Of a stretch of 64,000 bases of DNA, positions 10,505 through 61,235 are shown piece after piece. Numbering within the stretch: the stretch's first letter is position 1; each line of letters starts with the position of its first letter. The position numbers and the translations under genes were made by a program. Source of the stretch: Salinicoccus halitifaciens (lineage in GTDB: Bacteria > Bacillota > Bacilli > Staphylococcales > Salinicoccaceae); NCBI RefSeq assembly GCF_021026095.1, contig NZ_JAJNCU010000003.1:186001-250000 (forward strand). The letters run 5' to 3'. The notes under the pieces were generated by a model. It saw nothing but the letters and a program-made list of their open reading frames with translations, searched no databases and was not told the origin of the DNA.

Positions 10505-11146
10505 TTATCCCAAAAATTTTCCTTCGACATATTTGATATGAGTATGAATCTTATTTTCTACTATTTTCGGCTCTTTTGTTAACAGTGCTTTCATAAGCTC
10601 CTCCTGTTCTTCATAGAATGCCTTGGGACTGGTATAGTATTCATCCAAATACAATAGAAAAGTTCTTATTTGCACTTTAATCGATTCATACAATTTAATA
10701 ATCCTCGAATTCCCCGATAAGTTAACGATATAGCTGTGAAATTTCATATCTAGATCGAATAAGTCAATCCAGTCTTCAATACTATTTTTGTCTTTCATTT
10801 CATCCAATATAGTCTGCAGCTCAGCAAATTCCTTTTCTCCTAGATGGGGAAGCGCTTTTAAAAAGGCATAAGATTCGACCATCAGTCTCAAATCAATAAT
10901 CTCTTTCCAATCTTCATTAGAAAAGTCAGAGACATATGTACCTTTTCTAGGTTCTATGATTACCATCCCGTCGTTTTCTAATATTTTTAAAGAATCCCTG
11001 ATGACATTTCTGCTTACATCGTACTTCACAGACAGTTCATTCTCGATTAACCTTTCTCCAAACTCTATTTCTCTTTTCCAAATGCTTCGTCTCAGTTCTT
11101 CGGCGATAATTTCTCCTAAAGAACCTTTGATTATATTTGATTTCAT
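10505..11146 (-). CDS. GntR family regulator, FadR/FCD subfamily
   Basis: A 213-residue protein with an N-terminal winged helix (residues about 10-75, including GERLIENELSVKYDVSRNVIRDSLKILE) and an all-helical FCD effector domain after residue 80 with the metal-site residues DLRLMVE, DMKFH and H near the end. FCD regulators usually bind an organic acid and repress the adjacent catabolic operon. The palindrome ATTGTCGACAAT stands between its start and its promoter, and almost the same box occurs at the divergent M20/TRAP operon at 12412, so it most likely controls both and itself. Confidence 0.88.
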   Translation of the reverse strand: MKSNIIKGSLGEIIAEELRRSIWKREIEFGERLIENELSVKYDVSRNVIRDSLKILENDGMVIIEPRKGTYVSDFSNEDWKEIIDLRLMVESYAFLKALPHLGEKEFAELQTILDEMKDKNSIEDWIDLFDLDMKFHSYIVNLSGNSRIIKLYESIKVQIRTFLLYLDEYYTSPKAFYEEQEELMKALLTKEPKIVENKIHTHIKYVEGKFLG

Positions 11147-11188
11147 ATGATTAACCCTTCCTTCAACTTTTAAAAGAGCTAACAGTCG

Positions 11189-11242
11189 ATTGTCGACAAT
11201 TAAACTTAAATATACAATAGACTATGTTAAAAATTCTGTCAA
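11189..11242 (-). promoter_or_regulatory. gntR promoter with operator palindrome
   Basis: On the minus strand TTGACA (11242-11237), a 17-nt spacer and TATTGT (11219-11214) form a sigma-A promoter. Downstream, at 11189-11200, is the perfect 12-bp palindrome ATTGTCGACAAT, which fits the GT-N-AC style of FadR-type operators. Both elements and CATAGTCTA in the spacer are repeated at the 12372-12423 promoter. Confidence 0.75.
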
Positions 11243-11257
11243 ATATATTATTTGTAA

Positions 11258-12241
11258 TCAAATATCATCATCATTTATTACTTCTTGATTTATTAAATTT
11301 GGTGGAATTTCGTTATTTAAACCTCTGATAAGATTCTTTTGTGCTAACCTGGACATCGCTAATTCATTTTCTATTGTTGCTGCACCTAAGTGAGGCAAAG
11401 TAATTACATTTGGTAACGATAATAATGGATTATCGGTTCCTACAGGTTCTTTTTCAAAGACATCAAGTGCTGCAGCTAATATTTCATTGTTTTTCAAAGC
11501 GTTATATAATGCATTTTCATCGATGTTCATTCCTCGAGAAGCATTAACGAAAATTGCGCTTGTTTTCATCTTTTTAAAATGTTCAGCTTTAATAAAATGT
11601 TTTGTTTCTCTAGAACCTGGAATCATCAAAACTACAAAGTCCGATTCTTTCAATAAATCCTCCACATTATGAAAAACAGCACCATAGCTATCCTCCACTT
11701 CCGGTTTTCGTGATCTATTATAATATAGAATTTTCATGTCAAAACCATAATGACATCTTTTAGCAACAGCCTGCCCTATCGCTCCCATTCCAATTATTCC
11801 AATTTTTTTATGATGAACATCGGTCCCAAATCGGTCTAGTTGAAGGTATTCTTTCCATCTTCCTTCTTTAACGAATCTATCGAGCTCAGGTATTCGTCTT
11901 GCCGAGGCTATAAGCATCCCCACAACTGCATCTGCCACTGTATCAGTTAAAACCCCTGGTGTATTGGTTGCCATTATTTTACGTTTGGTCATCTCTGGGA
12001 GGTCGAGGTTGTCGTATCCAACTGATACATTGGAAACAATCTTTAAATTGGGCGCAAGTCCCAAAAGTTCTTTAGTCACTTTTAATTCCAATCCTATAAT
12101 TCCTTCGGCTTCCCCAAGTGCTTTTCTAAATTTTGCACTTTCCAGATATTCATAGTTTTCAAAATACGAGACATCAAATTGTAATTTCAAATCTTCTATC
12201 ACGGGTTTGGAAACTCTTGTATAGGCTATTATTTTTCTCAC
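11258..12241 (-). CDS. D-2-hydroxyacid dehydrogenase (glyoxylate/hydroxypyruvate reductase type)
   Basis: A 327-residue NAD(P)-dependent oxidoreductase. The Rossmann loop GIIGMGAIGQAVAK lies at mid-protein; the catalytic set is present as Arg in NASRG, Glu in DVFEKEP and His in LPHLGAAT. The family reduces 2-keto acids such as glyoxylate or hydroxypyruvate to D-2-hydroxy acids, or the reverse. It has its own minus-strand promoter at 12286-12315. The gntR promoter lies in the short gap after it. The product may feed or drain a keto acid of the island pathway; this is inference. Confidence 0.85.
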   Translation of the reverse strand: MRKIIAYTRVSKPVIEDLKLQFDVSYFENYEYLESAKFRKALGEAEGIIGLELKVTKELLGLAPNLKIVSNVSVGYDNLDLPEMTKRKIMATNTPGVLTDTVADAVVGMLIASARRIPELDRFVKEGRWKEYLQLDRFGTDVHHKKIGIIGMGAIGQAVAKRCHYGFDMKILYYNRSRKPEVEDSYGAVFHNVEDLLKESDFVVLMIPGSRETKHFIKAEHFKKMKTSAIFVNASRGMNIDENALYNALKNNEILAAALDVFEKEPVGTDNPLLSLPNVITLPHLGAATIENELAMSRLAQKNLIRGLNNEIPPNLINQEVINDDDI

Positions 12242-15512: not shown

Positions 15513-16789
15513 CTGTAGCCCTTTTATTTATTTCTTTTTTCCTCCTGATGCTTATAGGTGTCCCTATTGCACTTTCCCTGGGTATAGCATCATTGGTTAC
15601 AATGGTATTTGCGACAGAGAATTCTCCAACCATAATTATACAACAAGCTTTTACATCTCTTGACAGCTTTCCTCTGATGGCAATCCCTTTATTTATATTA
15701 GCTGGTGTCTTGATGAGTACAGGCGGAATTTCAGAACGGTTATTAAATCTAGCTAATGTATTAATAGGCTTTGTTGCTGGCGGGCTGGCAATGGTAACCG
15801 TTTTGGCAAGTATGTTCTTTGCCGCTATTTCCGGTTCAGGCCCCGCAACGGTAGCTGCAATCGGTTCGTTCATGATTCCCTCAATGAGGGAAAATAATTA
15901 TGGTAGTGGCTTTGCTGCAGCTATCACAGCTTCAGCGGGCTCCATAGGCGTATTAATCCCTCCAAGTATCCCATTTGTCATGTATGGGGTCGTGGGGACA
16001 GTCTCAATCGGTTCCATGTTTTTAGCGGGTATCATTCCCGGTCTGATACTTGGCTTCGCATTGATGGTGATCTCTTATATTAATGCCAAGAGAAATGGGA
16101 TTGAGGGATCCGGCGTGACGCCTTCATTCAGAGATGTTTTAAAAGCGTTGAATGAAGCGAAGTTTGCATTATTAGTCCCGGTTATTATCTTAGGCGGAAT
16201 CTATGCAGGTTTATTTTCACCAACAGAATCTGCGGCAGTGGCATCGGTATATGCACTTTTTATAGGAGTTTTTGTTTACAAGGAACTGACATGGAAATCT
16301 GTCTACCAGAGTTTTTCCTCCGCTGCCCTTACAAATGCTGCCACAGTAATCATTATAGGGTTTTCAGTTTCATTTGCTTATCTGATGACAAGAGAAAGAA
16401 TCCCGTCCATCGTAGCAGATTTTATAGTCAGCCTATCAGAAAACCCTCTTGTCATAATGTTAATTATTAACATTTTTTTATTAATTGTAGGCATGTTTAT
16501 TGATACAATATCAGCAATAGTTATTCTGACTCCAATCTTACTTCCAGTCGTAACGAATATTGGATTAGATCCAATACACTTTGGGGTAATACTCGTAATG
16601 AACCTCGCCATTGGGTTTGTCACTCCACCACTTGGTGTCAACTTGTTTGTCGCCTCAAATGTAGGTAAGGTTCCATTTGATAAGATTGCTAAAGGGATGA
16701 TTCCTATTTTAGTTGTCATGCTGATTGCCTTAATGATTGTAACTTATTTCCCTCCATTATCAACTTGGATTCCTAGTTTACGAGATTAA
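15509..16789 (+). CDS. dctM: TRAP transporter large permease DctM
   Basis: 426 residues with about 12 hydrophobic segments; the family length is near 425. Recognisable DctM motifs are ISGSGPATVAAIGSFMIP, GVLIPPSIPFVMYG and the C-terminal GFVTPPLGVNLF. It is the Na+-driven channel subunit that takes the acid delivered by DctP. It ends the operon; a strong terminator lies about 180 bp further on. Confidence 0.93.
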   Translation: MTVALLFISFFLLMLIGVPIALSLGIASLVTMVFATENSPTIIIQQAFTSLDSFPLMAIPLFILAGVLMSTGGISERLLNLANVLIGFVAGGLAMVTVLASMFFAAISGSGPATVAAIGSFMIPSMRENNYGSGFAAAITASAGSIGVLIPPSIPFVMYGVVGTVSIGSMFLAGIIPGLILGFALMVISYINAKRNGIEGSGVTPSFRDVLKALNEAKFALLVPVIILGGIYAGLFSPTESAAVASVYALFIGVFVYKELTWKSVYQSFSSAALTNAATVIIIGFSVSFAYLMTRERIPSIVADFIVSLSENPLVIMLIINIFLLIVGMFIDTISAIVILTPILLPVVTNIGLDPIHFGVILVMNLAIGFVTPPLGVNLFVASNVGKVPFDKIAKGMIPILVVMLIALMIVTYFPPLSTWIPSLRD

Positions 16790-45422: not shown

Positions 45423-45465
45423 CAAGAACAGCGGGGACGGACCATAAGCAGTCCATCCATCACAC

Positions 45466-45542
45466 ATTCCCTACGCTGGTATTATCCAGATCAGGTCAAA
45501 GGGTCAGGATTCCTCCTTCTCAGCCGTACGGCTCCCCTATGT
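45466..45542 (-). ncRNA. TPP riboswitch (THI-box)
   Basis: The minus strand carries the conserved aptamer parts in order: GGGGAGCC, GGCTGAGA, GACCCTTTGACCTGATCTGG and AATACCAGCGTAGGGA. The two ends pair as the closing helix. With TPP bound, the downstream terminator forms and the thiYXZ operon is off. A sigma-A promoter lies just upstream. Confidence 0.95.
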
Positions 45543-45564
45543 ATCATTATTCACTTGTGAAATC

Positions 45565-56684: not shown

Positions 56685-57722
56685 TTATTTTCTATCCTGG
56701 GCAGGCATCACTTCAAGGCTCAATGGTTCGCGCGTGTAACGCTTGCCTTTCTTTTCACCCTTCAGTTCCTTCTCCTTCAGGACATAGCTCAACAGATCAA
56801 GCATGATCCTTGCCGCCGTCTGTCCTGTCATCCCTGTCGGGTCATACTGCGGTGCAACTTCGACCAGGTCGAACCCGATCACTTCCCCGTGGCCCGCAAT
56901 CGCCTTCAAAAGGTCGTTCACTTCATCATAGAGCAGTCCGCCCGGTGAAGGTGTGCCCGTCCCCGGTGCTATGGAAGGGTCGACACCGTCGATATCGATC
57001 GTGATATAGTACTTCTCACCCGCCGGGATGAGGTCGAGCAGACCCTGGATGCCCTTCTCGCGCATCTTTTTAGGCGACAGTATTGTGGAACCGTAATCCC
57101 TTGCTGCATCGACGTCTTCCTTCTTGCTGCTGCTGATGCCGCGGATGCCGAACTGGTAGATGTTCTCCACATGGTCAAGCTCCGATAATCTCCGGATGCA
57201 GTTGCCGTGGCCGTAACGCATGCCGGATCTGTGATCCGCCCAGTCAAGGTGTGCATCCAGCTGGATGACGTGGAACGGGCCGAGTTCCTCAAGGCCTTTG
57301 CCGACAGGTGCCGTGATTGAATGGTCGCCGCCCATGATCACCGGCATAGCGCCCTGTGCCACGATCTTACGCACCATTTCTTCAGTGTTGTCATGGCTCT
57401 GCATGATGTCCCCATGGACGATGTCCACATCACCGCAGTCCAGCACTTTCCAATCAGGTCCGAGGTAAGTGATGTCATTTTCGATATCATACGCACCTTC
57501 CAGGCCGAAACTGTATAATGTCGAACCTTCGCGAATCGCCCTCGGGCCCATTCTTGCACCCGACTTCCACTGTGTCCCCATGTCGTTCGGTACACCGATC
57601 ACTGCCACATCCGCCTCCATCTCGGAAAGCTTCTCCACCTCATCACAAATCGGATACTTTCCAAAAGTGCTGATGCCTGTGAACGGCAGATTCAAAAATT
57701 GTTTTTCATCCGGTCTTACCAT
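56685..57722 (-). CDS. Ureohydrolase (agmatinase-like), second copy
   Basis: 345 residues. Manganese ligands: His in GGDHSI, Asp/His/Asp in QLDAHLDWAD, and Asp pair in TIDIDGVDPS; APGTGTPSPGG follows. It is distant from the ureohydrolase at 18504 (DAHLD in place of DSHGD, and a longer N-terminus), so a different guanidino substrate is likely, for example agmatine or a guanidino acid. It is divergent from a YjiH-family transporter across twin palindromes. RBS GGGGGAATG lies before the ATG. Confidence 0.87.
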   Translation of the reverse strand: MVRPDEKQFLNLPFTGISTFGKYPICDEVEKLSEMEADVAVIGVPNDMGTQWKSGARMGPRAIREGSTLYSFGLEGAYDIENDITYLGPDWKVLDCGDVDIVHGDIMQSHDNTEEMVRKIVAQGAMPVIMGGDHSITAPVGKGLEELGPFHVIQLDAHLDWADHRSGMRYGHGNCIRRLSELDHVENIYQFGIRGISSSKKEDVDAARDYGSTILSPKKMREKGIQGLLDLIPAGEKYYITIDIDGVDPSIAPGTGTPSPGGLLYDEVNDLLKAIAGHGEVIGFDLVEVAPQYDPTGMTGQTAARIMLDLLSYVLKEKELKGEKKGKRYTREPLSLEVMPAQDRK

Positions 57723-57854
57723 GATACATTCCCCCTGTTTTATATGAACATTAAGTTTCTGACTTTTCTTAAATCTATCAGTGACTAAAATCTATCACGG
57801 TTTCTCCATAAATACAATACAAAAACGCAAAATAATTTCATTAAAATGATAAAA

Positions 57855-57883
57855 ATAATAACATAAATGCATTATTGCATCAA
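57855..57883 (-). promoter_or_regulatory. Ureohydrolase promoter overlapped by palindrome 1
   Basis: Minus strand TTGATG (57883-57878), 17-nt spacer, TATTAT (57860-57855). The palindrome AATGCA-TTAT-TGCAT (57866-57881) covers the -35 box and most of the spacer. The gap 57723-58100 holds this and the mirror element only. Confidence 0.65.
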
Positions 57884-57953
57884 AATGCAGAATTACATTT
57901 TAACTGATAAATATCTATAATAAAGCCTTTTATAAATAATCTATGATAAAATA

Positions 57954-57991
57954 AATGCATTATTGCATTTTAAAAGTTTTGTTTTTATAAA
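57954..57991 (+). promoter_or_regulatory. YjiH-family gene promoter overlapped by palindrome 2
   Basis: AATGCA-TTAT-TGCATT at 57954-57969 is a 16-bp element with perfect 6-bp arms, repeated 88 bp from the first one. Its right arm contains TTGCAT (57963-57968), which with a 17-nt spacer and TATAAA (57986-57991) forms a sigma-A promoter. No GG-N10-GC sigma-54 element was found in the gap. Confidence 0.7.
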
Positions 57992-58100
57992 ATTTTATGT
58001 CGGAAAACCCTTGTTAAATAATATGCTCCCGTGCATAATGGTTTCCAGGGAGATGGGTTTCTGAAAATAATGAATGTTTAATTAACAAGGGGGACTGGAC

Positions 58101-59501
58101 ATGAATGATCCATTCAATAAGGCGGGAGTTGCACTCAGTAGAAAGCGCTATCTTACAGGGGTAAGCAGATTCATATTTTTCACGAGCATCGCAGTGCTGG
58201 TATTCTTCATACCTTTTGAAATCAACGGCAACAGGGAGATACTTTTCGGCTTCATCTATAATACACTCATCGATCTATTCGGCATCCTCGGCATATGGAT
58301 GATCAGCATCATAACAGCGGGGAACGCCCTGCTCAGCCTCGTCGGTAAATTCGTATCGAAGGAAGGCACGAAGCTGCACAGCTATTACGCAAAGGATTCA
58401 AAAATATATATTCCTATATACTTTCTGGGGGCGGCGTACTCCATACTATATACACTGCAGGTTTCCATACCGGCCTTCAACGGTCCGGAGGCGATCGTCG
58501 GATCGAGCACAGGTGAACTGATGTCCGGCATCGCACTTGCGGTCATGTGGGTCATCCCGCTCGGTGCGATATTCATACCGTTCTTCGTCAACTACGGATC
58601 GATCGATTTTGTCGGCACACTGCTTCAGCCGATCATGCGCCCGGTCTTCAAGGTGCCGGGCAAGAGTGCAGTGGATGCCATCACTTCATTTCTGACATCG
58701 TCATCGGTGGCGGTGCTTTTCACCACCAAACTGTATAATAAGAAGTTCTACACCAAGAAGGAAGCAGCCGTCATCACGACGAGCTTCAGTGCCGTCAGCA
58801 TCGGATTTGCGGCCGTCGTCATCGATACGGCGGGCCTGATGGAACATTTCGGTAAAGTGTACTTTTCGTCGTTCCTCGTGGCGTTCATCATCGCGTTCAT
58901 CATGATCCGCATCCCGCCGCTGTCCCTCAAAAAGAATGTCTATATCGATGACACCGAACAGACGCCGGAAGAGAGGGTCGCAGAAACGTACAATAAAAAC
59001 ACGCTCGGCATCGCCGTCAATTCTGCGATAGACCAGGCTGCCGATGCGAATGATTTCTTCTCTGAAATCAAGGAAAGCCTGAAGGAAGGTCTCGCGGTTC
59101 TGCCGAAAGTGCTGTCCATGCTGTTCGCCATCGGGGTGTCGGTGCTGATACTCGCAGAATACACGCCGACATTTGAGATCATCGGCGCCGTCATCGCACC
59201 GTTCATCCAGCTTTTACGGGTACCGGATGCCGCATTGATCGCACCATCCCTTGCACTTGGACTTGCTGAAATGTTCCTGCCGGTGCTCTACATTGCCGAT
59301 ATGGTGGGTACACTCGATGTACAGGCGAGATACTTCGTCACTGCGGTTTCAATGGTGCAGATCATATTCTTCGCTGAGACGGGTGCTGTCATGCTTTCGA
59401 CGGGACTTCCGCTCAAACTTTGGGAACTGATCGTCATCTTTACATTGAGAACGCTGATCGCAATGCCACTTGTCGCTGTATTCATGCATTTATTATTCTG
59501 A
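58101..59501 (+). CDS. YjiH family membrane transporter with nucleoside-recognition (Gate) domains
   Basis: 466 residues with about 10-11 hydrophobic segments. SFLTSSSVAVLFTTKLYN and the related AETGAVMLSTGLPLKLWELIVIFTLRT (shown as AETGAVMLSTGLPL) are Gate-type segments; EQTPEERVAETYNKN is a long cytosolic loop. The family is believed to transport small organic or amino compounds and is often beside arginine or agmatine genes. It is divergent from the ureohydrolase, so it may import that enzyme's guanidino substrate. RBS AAGGGGGA. Confidence 0.82.
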   Translation: MNDPFNKAGVALSRKRYLTGVSRFIFFTSIAVLVFFIPFEINGNREILFGFIYNTLIDLFGILGIWMISIITAGNALLSLVGKFVSKEGTKLHSYYAKDSKIYIPIYFLGAAYSILYTLQVSIPAFNGPEAIVGSSTGELMSGIALAVMWVIPLGAIFIPFFVNYGSIDFVGTLLQPIMRPVFKVPGKSAVDAITSFLTSSSVAVLFTTKLYNKKFYTKKEAAVITTSFSAVSIGFAAVVIDTAGLMEHFGKVYFSSFLVAFIIAFIMIRIPPLSLKKNVYIDDTEQTPEERVAETYNKNTLGIAVNSAIDQAADANDFFSEIKESLKEGLAVLPKVLSMLFAIGVSVLILAEYTPTFEIIGAVIAPFIQLLRVPDAALIAPSLALGLAEMFLPVLYIADMVGTLDVQARYFVTAVSMVQIIFFAETGAVMLSTGLPLKLWELIVIFTLRTLIAMPLVAVFMHLLF

Positions 59502-59509
59502 TCAAACTA

Positions 59510-59550
59510 AAGAGTGGCTGCACTTCCATTTTGGAAGCACAGCCACTTTT
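59510..59550. terminator. Bidirectional terminator
   Basis: AGTGGCTG and CAGCCACT, with an inner TTCC/GGAA stem, are followed by TTTTT; it lies between the convergent transporter and regulator genes. Confidence 0.85.
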
Positions 59551-59560
59551 TATATGAACT

Positions 59561-60931
59561 TCATTTGAATTTGATGCCGTACTTATGGAACTTCCGCCGG
59601 ATCGTCGTCGGGTCGACTTTGAGCTTCTTCGCCATGTCCGCAACATCACCGCCCGCCTCCATCGCATTCATGAGCACCTGCTTCTCAAAATTCGCCATGA
59701 TGTCGGCAAGCGACTGCGTGCCGTCCATCTCCATGAAAGCAAGGCTGTCGACCTGGGAATTTTTGATTTCAAACGGGATGTCGATATAATCAATGACGGA
59801 CTCCGGACTCGTGACAACAAGCCGTTCAACGATATTCTCAAGCTCCCTTACGTTGCCCGGCCAGTGATAGCCGGTCAGGGCATCCATCGCCTTCGGGTCG
59901 AGCCGTTTATCGAGCCCGTATTTTTCATTGACCTTCTTCAGGTTCTGCATGACGAGCGGATAGATGTCATCCCTTCTCTTCCTGAGCGGCGGGATGTCGA
60001 TCGGAATGATGTTCAGGCGGTAGTAGAGCTCCTCCCGGAACCGCTTCTCCTTCACCATCTCCTCGAGGTCTTTATTCGTCGCGGCGATCACCCGCACATC
60101 GATCGGGATCTCCTCATCACCGCCGGTCCTGGTGAACTTCTCTGCCTGGATGGCCGCAAGCAGCTTGCTCTGGAGGGAGAGCGACAGCTCGTCTACATCA
60201 TCGAGGAACAAGGTGCCGCCGTCCGCAAGCTCAAATAACGCTTTCCTCACGCTGCCAGTGCCGTCTTCACGGCCGAACAGTTCCGCTTCAAGCAGCGTTT
60301 CCGTGATTGCGCCGCAGTCGAGCTTCATGAACGGTTTATCCTTCACCGGGCTGTAGCTGTGGATCAGGCGGGCGATGACGCCCTTGCCGACGCCGGGCTC
60401 GCCCTGGATGAGCACCGACGATTTGACCGAGGCGACGCGCATGACCAGCTGGATGATCTTCTCCATCGTCGCATCCCTTGCGATGACGGCGCTGTCTATC
60501 TCCCGGTACTTCATCTGTTCGAGTTCCATATGGTAGTTTTTGCTGAGGTGCTTCGCCTGCTCCAGCTCATCCCGCAGATTGTTGAGTGAGGTGATGTCCC
60601 GTGAGTTCACGACGACCCCCTTCATCCGCCCTTCCCCGTCGAAGAACGGTGTGGCACTTGCCATGACCAGTTTGCCGTTGATGTTCTGGAACATGTTCAC
60701 ACGTTTTTTCTTTGCGATCGCAGCAAGGGTGATCGATTCCGGATACACCCCCGTATCCACAAAATGCTGCACGTTCTTCCCGATGATGTCCTCACGCCTG
60801 ATGCCTTCGATCTCCTCACACGCCTTGTTATAGAAAAGCGTCACCCCTTCGGCATCGGTGATATGTATCCCGTCGTAGGAAGAATCGATCAGGGACTGGA
60901 ATTCCTCCCTCGTAAAAAGCTTCTCCGTCAT
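59561..60931 (-). CDS. PAS-AAA+ enhancer-binding-type regulator lacking the GAFTGA loop (RocR/TyrR-like)
   Basis: About 456 residues: PAS sensor (about 12-115), AAA+ domain with Walker A GEPGVGKG (180-187) and Walker B LFLDDVD (244-250), and a C-terminal HTH (KLKVDPTTIRRKFHKYGIK). After AELFG the usual KGAFTGA segment is missing: REDGTGSVRKALFELADGG joins directly. That loop contacts sigma-54, so this protein probably works with sigma-A as TyrR does. Start ATG at 60931 behind AAGGGGG; a GTG three codons earlier is weaker. The neighbouring divergent promoters with twin palindromes are its likely targets. Confidence 0.87.
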   Translation of the reverse strand: MTEKLFTREEFQSLIDSSYDGIHITDAEGVTLFYNKACEEIEGIRREDIIGKNVQHFVDTGVYPESITLAAIAKKKRVNMFQNINGKLVMASATPFFDGEGRMKGVVVNSRDITSLNNLRDELEQAKHLSKNYHMELEQMKYREIDSAVIARDATMEKIIQLVMRVASVKSSVLIQGEPGVGKGVIARLIHSYSPVKDKPFMKLDCGAITETLLEAELFGREDGTGSVRKALFELADGGTLFLDDVDELSLSLQSKLLAAIQAEKFTRTGGDEEIPIDVRVIAATNKDLEEMVKEKRFREELYYRLNIIPIDIPPLRKRRDDIYPLVMQNLKKVNEKYGLDKRLDPKAMDALTGYHWPGNVRELENIVERLVVTSPESVIDYIDIPFEIKNSQVDSLAFMEMDGTQSLADIMANFEKQVLMNAMEAGGDVADMAKKLKVDPTTIRRKFHKYGIKFK

Positions 60932-61074: not shown

Positions 61075-61114
61075 TACTTGACTAAATCAATAAAAGAATA
61101 GAATATTCATGACA

Positions 61115-61212
61115 CTTATCCAGAGAGATGGAGGGACTGGCCCTTTGAAACCTCGGCAGCAGACTGTTCAGTACTGTGCCAATTCCAGGAAGCCGAAGGC
61201 TTTGAAGATAAG
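61115..61212 (+). ncRNA. SAM-I riboswitch (S-box) aptamer
   Basis: The closing helix P1 is CTTATC (61115-61120) with GATAAG (61207-61212). Between them are the conserved parts AGAGATGGAGGGACTGGCCC, TTTGAAACCTCGGCAGCAG, TGTGCCAATTCC and the helix GCCGAAGGC. This is the standard S-box order. S-boxes bind S-adenosylmethionine and usually control methionine or cysteine genes. Confidence 0.95.
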
Positions 61213-61235
61213 AAGAGCATCAACCAGTCGGATCC

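Follow-up and report, generated by a model that had tools for sequence, protein, structure and literature searches.

How a regulator can escape sigma-54 while keeping its targets is not obvious. The question is raised by a locus within a 64,000-nucleotide stretch of Salinicoccus halitifaciens DNA (hereafter the window), where the gene of an enhancer-binding protein lacking the GAFTGA loop adjoins genes for an agmatinase-family ureohydrolase and a membrane transporter (Table 1). An earlier note on this DNA had read the protein as a RocR-like regulator of arginine or agmatine metabolism, converted to work with sigma-A at two neighbouring promoters. I consider here what related genomes say about each part of that reading.

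Loss of GAFTGA accompanied by escape from sigma-54 is itself established for several regulators. TyrR, DhaR and HupR are sigma-70 dependent, VpsR and B. subtilis YplP are probably not sigma-54 dependent, and about 110 homologues deviating from GAFTGA, YplP included, had been noted by 2011 (PMC3162934). All five resemble the window regulator in being AAA+ enhancer-binding proteins whose GAFTGA is damaged, but they have other sensor domains and targets, and the available excerpts of PMC3162934 describe for them neither a relative with a -24/-12 promoter at the same locus nor a GAFMGA stage. What is new here, as far as the open PMC library shows, is that one regulator-transporter pair occurs with a -24/-12 promoter in one relative, with GAFMGA in others and with the loop deleted in others still, in cells where sigma-54 remains in use elsewhere. 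Since the loop is found intact, changed in one residue and deleted within that one pair, with matching promoter types, the order of events is testable between related proteins. In the same library I found no publication on this ureohydrolase-transporter-regulator locus, and none on Salinicoccus with sigma-54.

A divergent region of 378 bp separates the ureohydrolase gene from the transporter gene, and the regulator gene lies tail to tail with the latter. The ureohydrolase scores 191.8 bits against the NCBIfam agmatinase model TIGR01230 (cut-off 174.3), and the transporter I take to be YjiH-like. The sole pointer to the arginine or agmatine signal of the earlier note is this adjoining agmatinase-family enzyme, and I have not kept that part of the proposal. 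The three-gene layout is syntenic in 5/5 orthologous loci. Three genomes from a different family of the order encode ureohydrolases with 81-83% identity, but other genes adjoin these, and the fetched stretches hold no match to the regulator or transporter. Among 398 genomes sampled from the class outside the Salinicoccaceae, no close relative of the transporter turned up (3/398 matched at E 1e-80).

Table 1. Coordinates in the window of the genes, putative regulatory sites and altered regulator residues.
Feature	Position	Strand	Basis
Agmatinase-family ureohydrolase, 345 aa, probable target	56685..57722	-	PF00491 Arginase family (Pfam)
Candidate ureohydrolase promoter, ATGAAA-16-TATTGT (TTGAAA in three relatives)	57814..57841	-	Minus-strand conservation rank
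Operator 1 (putative), AATGCA-TTAT-TGCATC	57866..57881	.	Kept in five species
Operator 2 (putative), AATGCA-GAAT-TACATT	57884..57899	.	Kept in five species at a constant 18 bp past operator 1
Operator 3 (putative), AATGCA-TTAT-TGCATT	57954..57969	.	Kept in five species at 70-71 bp past operator 2
Candidate transporter promoter, TTGTTA-17-CATAAT (also TTGTAA)	58011..58039	+	Plus-strand conservation rank
Gate-domain membrane transporter, 466 aa	58101..59501	+	PF07670 Gate (Pfam)
GAFTGA-less enhancer-binding protein, 459 aa	59561..60940	-	PAS, AAA+, Fis HTH (Pfam)
Walker B second acidic residue, Glu -> Asp, residue 248	60197..60199	-	Alignment
Site of lost L1 loop, residues 224-234	60239..60271	-	Alignments

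The regulator and its orthologues

The domains that the earlier note had recognised are indeed present: Pfam finds a PAS domain, a sigma-54-type AAA+ domain with its lid and a Fis-type HTH (matches include PF00158 at 190.6 bits, PF25601 and PF02954), and the protein retains its Walker A lysine together with FRE.LYYR and WPGN.REL. The alignments also agree that the GAFTGA loop has been lost, the region reading ELFGREDGTGSVRKALFELADGG. In a comparison set of 49 proteins (full ORF, motif filter passed, identical sequences removed), the loop Phe is found in 49/49 and the loop Thr in 48/49. In PspF that Thr is critical for the contact with sigma-54, and substitutions in GAFTGA are mostly damaging (PMC2941729, PMC3162934). 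A structure model of the regulator was too poor for use (mean pLDDT 57.8, most of the AAA+ domain below 50).

A search of 157 Staphylococcales genomes gave matches in 21 at E 1e-40, and only five of these, the window included, are orthologues. In an alignment of homologues such as the earlier note had suggested, the deletion is shared by S. kekensis (96% identical to the window regulator, loop region GREDGTPGGVRK) and Lacicoccus alkaliphilus (87%, GRENGTAEGMRK). The two remaining orthologues, at about 69% identity, are those of S. sediminis and S. carnicancri, and they read GYEKGAFMGA instead. All five orthologues deviate from the comparison set at residues N208, P213, S219 and P253 (window numbering), and the three loop-deleted species deviate additionally at Y224, at Glu 248 (Asp), at G250 and at D304. 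The Glu at 248, in Walker B, is found in 49/49 proteins of the comparison set and also in the two GAFMGA species, S. sediminis and S. carnicancri. Walker B is Asp-Asp in the window regulator and its two loop-deleted relatives. To judge from the residues, the change is consistent with a loss of ATP hydrolysis.

Comparison with TyrR, which has an ACT domain at its N-terminus, serves as an analogy and not as a statement of membership, since ACT is absent among the Pfam hits of the window regulator and its score against the NCBIfam TyrR model is 221.3 bits (cut-off 576). The best score among the 25 NCBIfam models listed is to PrdR (NF041552), which has the same PAS-AAA+-HTH layout; the score of 358.7 bits is nonetheless far from the cut-off of 795, and PrdR is named sigma-54 dependent. 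A parallel for the lesion itself comes from the NtrC proteins of R. capsulatus and Caulobacter, in which a loop-1 deletion covers GAFTGA; the R. capsulatus protein is reported to activate sigma-70 promoters and to need ATP binding rather than hydrolysis (PMC10274813). Those proteins are two-component response regulators, whereas the window regulator has PAS, with no receiver domain among its Pfam matches.

Changes at AAA+ residues that are otherwise invariant might instead be taken to mean that the regulator gene is decaying and that the palindromes described below belong to some other regulator. Against this, the regulator remains a full-length ORF in all five species, and its dN/dS is 0.07-0.09 in four pairs, similar to that of the adjoining transporter (in the fifth pair, the window and S. 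sediminis, synonymous sites are saturated), which argues that the gene is maintained. Furthermore, the operators are damaged where the regulator has been lost. In Candidatus S. stercoripullorum (L116/L134), the ureohydrolase is retained at 89% identity, the regulator is a remnant (67% over residues 9-59) and the search for the transporter gave no match. Of the operators there, the first is destroyed and the second carries mutations, but the TTGAAA and TATTGT boxes before the ureohydrolase are kept. This genome is a single metagenome assembly, and the reading frame of its ureohydrolase gene breaks near residue 291, so the pattern may reflect decay of the whole locus or, in part, an artefact of misassembly. 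Taken together, I regard a decaying regulator as highly unlikely.

A sigma-54-type relative and sigma-54 in the Salinicoccaceae

In a tree of 54 sequences, the five regulators form a clade with the regulator of Evansella vedderi, and the five orthologues form a clade by themselves, both with ultrafast bootstrap support of 100. For L054 and L064, which come next in this tree, the 16 kb fetched holds no match to the transporter or ureohydrolase. The E. vedderi regulator is 49% identical to that of the window and has GAFTGA intact. Its gene and that of a 59% identical transporter stand tail to tail, and rpoN is present in the genome. Upstream of its ureohydrolase-transporter pair stands TTGGCACAAGGTTTGCAT, a -24/-12 element of the form TTGGCAC-N5-TTGCAT with 0 mismatches, which 0/500 shuffles equalled. 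The earlier note held that homologues with an intact loop in the same locus would speak against conversion. E. vedderi is the only one found, and since its promoter is of the -24/-12 type, it fits conversion rather than refuting it. The transporter there is preceded by a different agmatinase-family gene (35% identity) and the gene order differs from that of the window, for which reason a rearrangement, and not a series of point changes, may have removed the sigma-54 promoter.

That the sigma-54 state is known from one species only counts against the conversion reading. In the family of E. vedderi, 33/35 genomes have transporter matches at E 1e-60, only two others being close (72% and 71%), and in neither of those two does the fetched 16 kb contain such a regulator. 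Among the matches listed for the 289 genomes of the order to which E. vedderi belongs (11/289 matched, itself included), none was to a regulator more than 50% identical to its own.

The expectation that the organism lacks rpoN did not hold: a search of the window genome with the Pfam model gave a single rpoN match above the cut-off, to a divergent RpoN (172 bits, as compared to an NCBIfam rpoN cut-off of 277). Sigma54_DBD exceeds its cut-off in 19/33 Salinicoccaceae genomes, including all five that carry the regulator, and this is what might favour a regulator still using sigma-54 through some non-standard contact. A linked canonical GAFTGA regulator, however, accounts for rpoN in 18 of those 19 genomes (the exception, G029, is 80% complete), and the loop is lost or its Thr changed in 5/5 orthologues. 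An automatic label of "sigma-54 interacting regulator" can therefore mislead, even where the genome has rpoN.

The promoters of the targets bear on the same point. At the canonical loci, two sigma-54-like elements flank the regulator gene in 18/18 (a count that leaves out L021, L022 and L027, scanned as well but belonging to another family of the order). These loci and that of E. vedderi were the positive controls of the element scan, and the plainness of the elements in them implies that a sigma-54-type element is easily visible where a canonical regulator acts. In the window's target region, by contrast with such loci, the best -24/-12 site has 3 mismatches and is equalled by 223/500 shuffles, in accord with the earlier claim that no sigma-54 element is present. 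That site, on the minus strand at about 58047-58032, keeps GG..GC; it is common to S. kekensis (215/500 shuffles) but absent in the other three species. None of the five target regions has an element beyond chance, in either the textbook or the TGGCAY-N5-TTTCT form, and the only clear sigma-54-like elements found belong to another locus, that of the canonical regulator. A more distant use of sigma-54 at the targets was rejected on the same ground. RocR controls arginine catabolism from sigma-54-type promoters, and with no promoter of that type found at the targets the likeness to RocR falls away. Continued use of sigma-54 by the window regulator I consider improbable in the extreme.

Some observations concern the canonical loci themselves. 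In the Salinicoccaceae (18 loci among L023-L042), the elements read TGGCAY-N5-TTTCT in 36/36 instances, not the textbook TTGCW at -12, a form that may reflect an altered -12 recognition by the divergent RpoN of this family. Those of the window genome lie at 15906 and 17380 of L042 (C6), where masked bases at 10579-11544 give unknown residues in the translation of an ORF. The neighbours of the canonical regulator there are FAD-dependent oxidase-like and proline-racemase-family proteins, both below model cut-offs, from which one might guess that the locus serves the use of hydroxyproline. L021, L022 and L027, from the neighbouring family, have sigma-54-type regulators, with GAFTGA in L021 and L022; these two show the textbook-like TGGCACGAAGTTTGCA, and L027 gave no GAFTGA ORF.

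Putative operators and candidate promoters between the divergent genes

The two palindromes that the earlier note had placed 88 bp apart were found in the sequence (operators 1 and 3 of Table 1), but a third with one mismatch, operator 2, had been overlooked. Each of the three matches AATGCA-N4-TGCATT with 0-2 mismatches across five species, with 10/16, 11/16 and 10/16 invariant columns in the alignment (62-69%), as compared to 9/55 (16%) in the spacer that separates operator 2 from operator 3 and 7/33 in the interval between operator 1 and the ureohydrolase promoter. In the whole 2.68 Mb genome the 15-mer AATGCATTATTGCAT has just two exact copies, both at this locus. Allowing one mismatch, the motif has 12 sites in the genome, as opposed to 1 for a reversed control pattern. 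Three of these lie within 104 bp here, and they are the only ones outside ORFs; the other nine fall inside mechanically called ORFs, which leads me to reject a regulator of many genes and to suppose that the target set is probably this locus alone. The palindromes were also considered as ArgR/AhrC ARG boxes or GlnR/TnrA boxes and rejected, their core-to-core spacing being unlike that of the consensus sequences.

A link between these operators and E. vedderi is suggestive only, since the strict motif (at most one mismatch) is not among the sites listed at that locus (16 sites in the genome against 16 for the control) and the best single looser site is matched by 719/2000 shuffles. The looser sites include the core TGCA-N4-TGCA twice, overlapping, farther upstream than the -24/-12 element, and four sites with at most three mismatches are together reached by 3/2000 shuffles.

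Candidate sigma-A promoters were ranked by scoring each TTGACA-16/18-TATAAT-like pair in five species at once, at a shared column of the alignment, and summing its mismatches. On the plus strand the transporter candidate ranks first, with a sum of 15 as against 19 for the next, and 19/29 of its columns are invariant. The ureohydrolase candidate leads on the minus strand only narrowly (17, as against 18 for a runner-up almost on the start codon), with 24/35 columns invariant over 57808-57842. The promoters proposed earlier (TTGCAT-17-TATAAA for the transporter, TTGATG-17-TATTAT for the ureohydrolase) exist as strings but are outside the six best conserved on each strand, and I have rejected them as the main ones. 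The overlap of palindromes with -35 boxes goes with them, as the palindromes overlap neither of the best conserved promoters.

The positions of the operators are what chiefly separates activation from repression. With the start of transcription assumed to lie 12 bases beyond the beginning of the -10 box, operators 1 and 2 are centred at about -66.5 and -84.5 from the ureohydrolase start and operator 3 at about -84.5 from the transporter start, and at such distances (66-85 bp) upstream activation suits better than blocking. The main rival is a sigma-A repressor whose dimers, on operators 1-2 and on operator 3, would loop out 70-88 bp and shut the promoters until a ligand binds PAS. Operators flanking the intergenic centre at fixed spacing would suit such a loop, as would the overlap of operators 1 and 3 with the weaker promoters of the earlier note, and PMC3162934, in its text on PhhR, offers TyrR as a sigma-54-independent relative that can replace or be replaced as repressor. 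The best conserved promoters, however, are free of operator overlap and have the operators at activator-like distances. I therefore prefer activation and consider repression by looping rather unlikely.

Proposed action and descent of the regulator

The core of the earlier proposal, an enhancer-binding protein converted to sigma-A, finds support in the loss of the loop, in purifying selection on the gene, in a target region without a sigma-54 element beyond chance, and in the ancestor-like sigma-54-type locus of E. vedderi. From these comparisons of sequence it seems to me quite probable that a former sigma-54 activator, having lost its loop, acts with sigma-A RNA polymerase and activates both genes through the three putative operators. 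The regulator would descend from a sigma-54-dependent activator that lost its contact with that factor. Dimers or oligomers would bind the AATGCA-N4-TGCATT operators between the divergent genes, a ligand would signal through the PAS domain, and the protein would touch sigma-A RNA polymerase from upstream, as has been reported for R. capsulatus NtrC. Activation would be exerted from about -66/-85 on the ureohydrolase gene and from about -85 on the transporter gene, and the switch may be the binding of ATP, not its hydrolysis.

The change of sigma factor could have come about in steps: from GAFTGA with a -24/-12 promoter, as in E. vedderi, through rearrangement beside a ureohydrolase with a sigma-A promoter, then from Thr to Met, as in S. 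sediminis and S. carnicancri, and finally to deletion of the loop with loss of the Walker B Glu, sigma-54 still being used at one other locus. I hold the scales to be level on this scheme, and the order of its events is what the sequences would suggest.

Two riboswitches were seen elsewhere in the window. One, a SAM riboswitch at 61113-61214, lies upstream of an enolase-superfamily dehydratase-like gene and one for a TctC-type binding protein, an unusual target, and is present too in S. kekensis and L. alkaliphilus. The other is a TPP riboswitch at 45451-45548 on the minus strand (81.1 bits).
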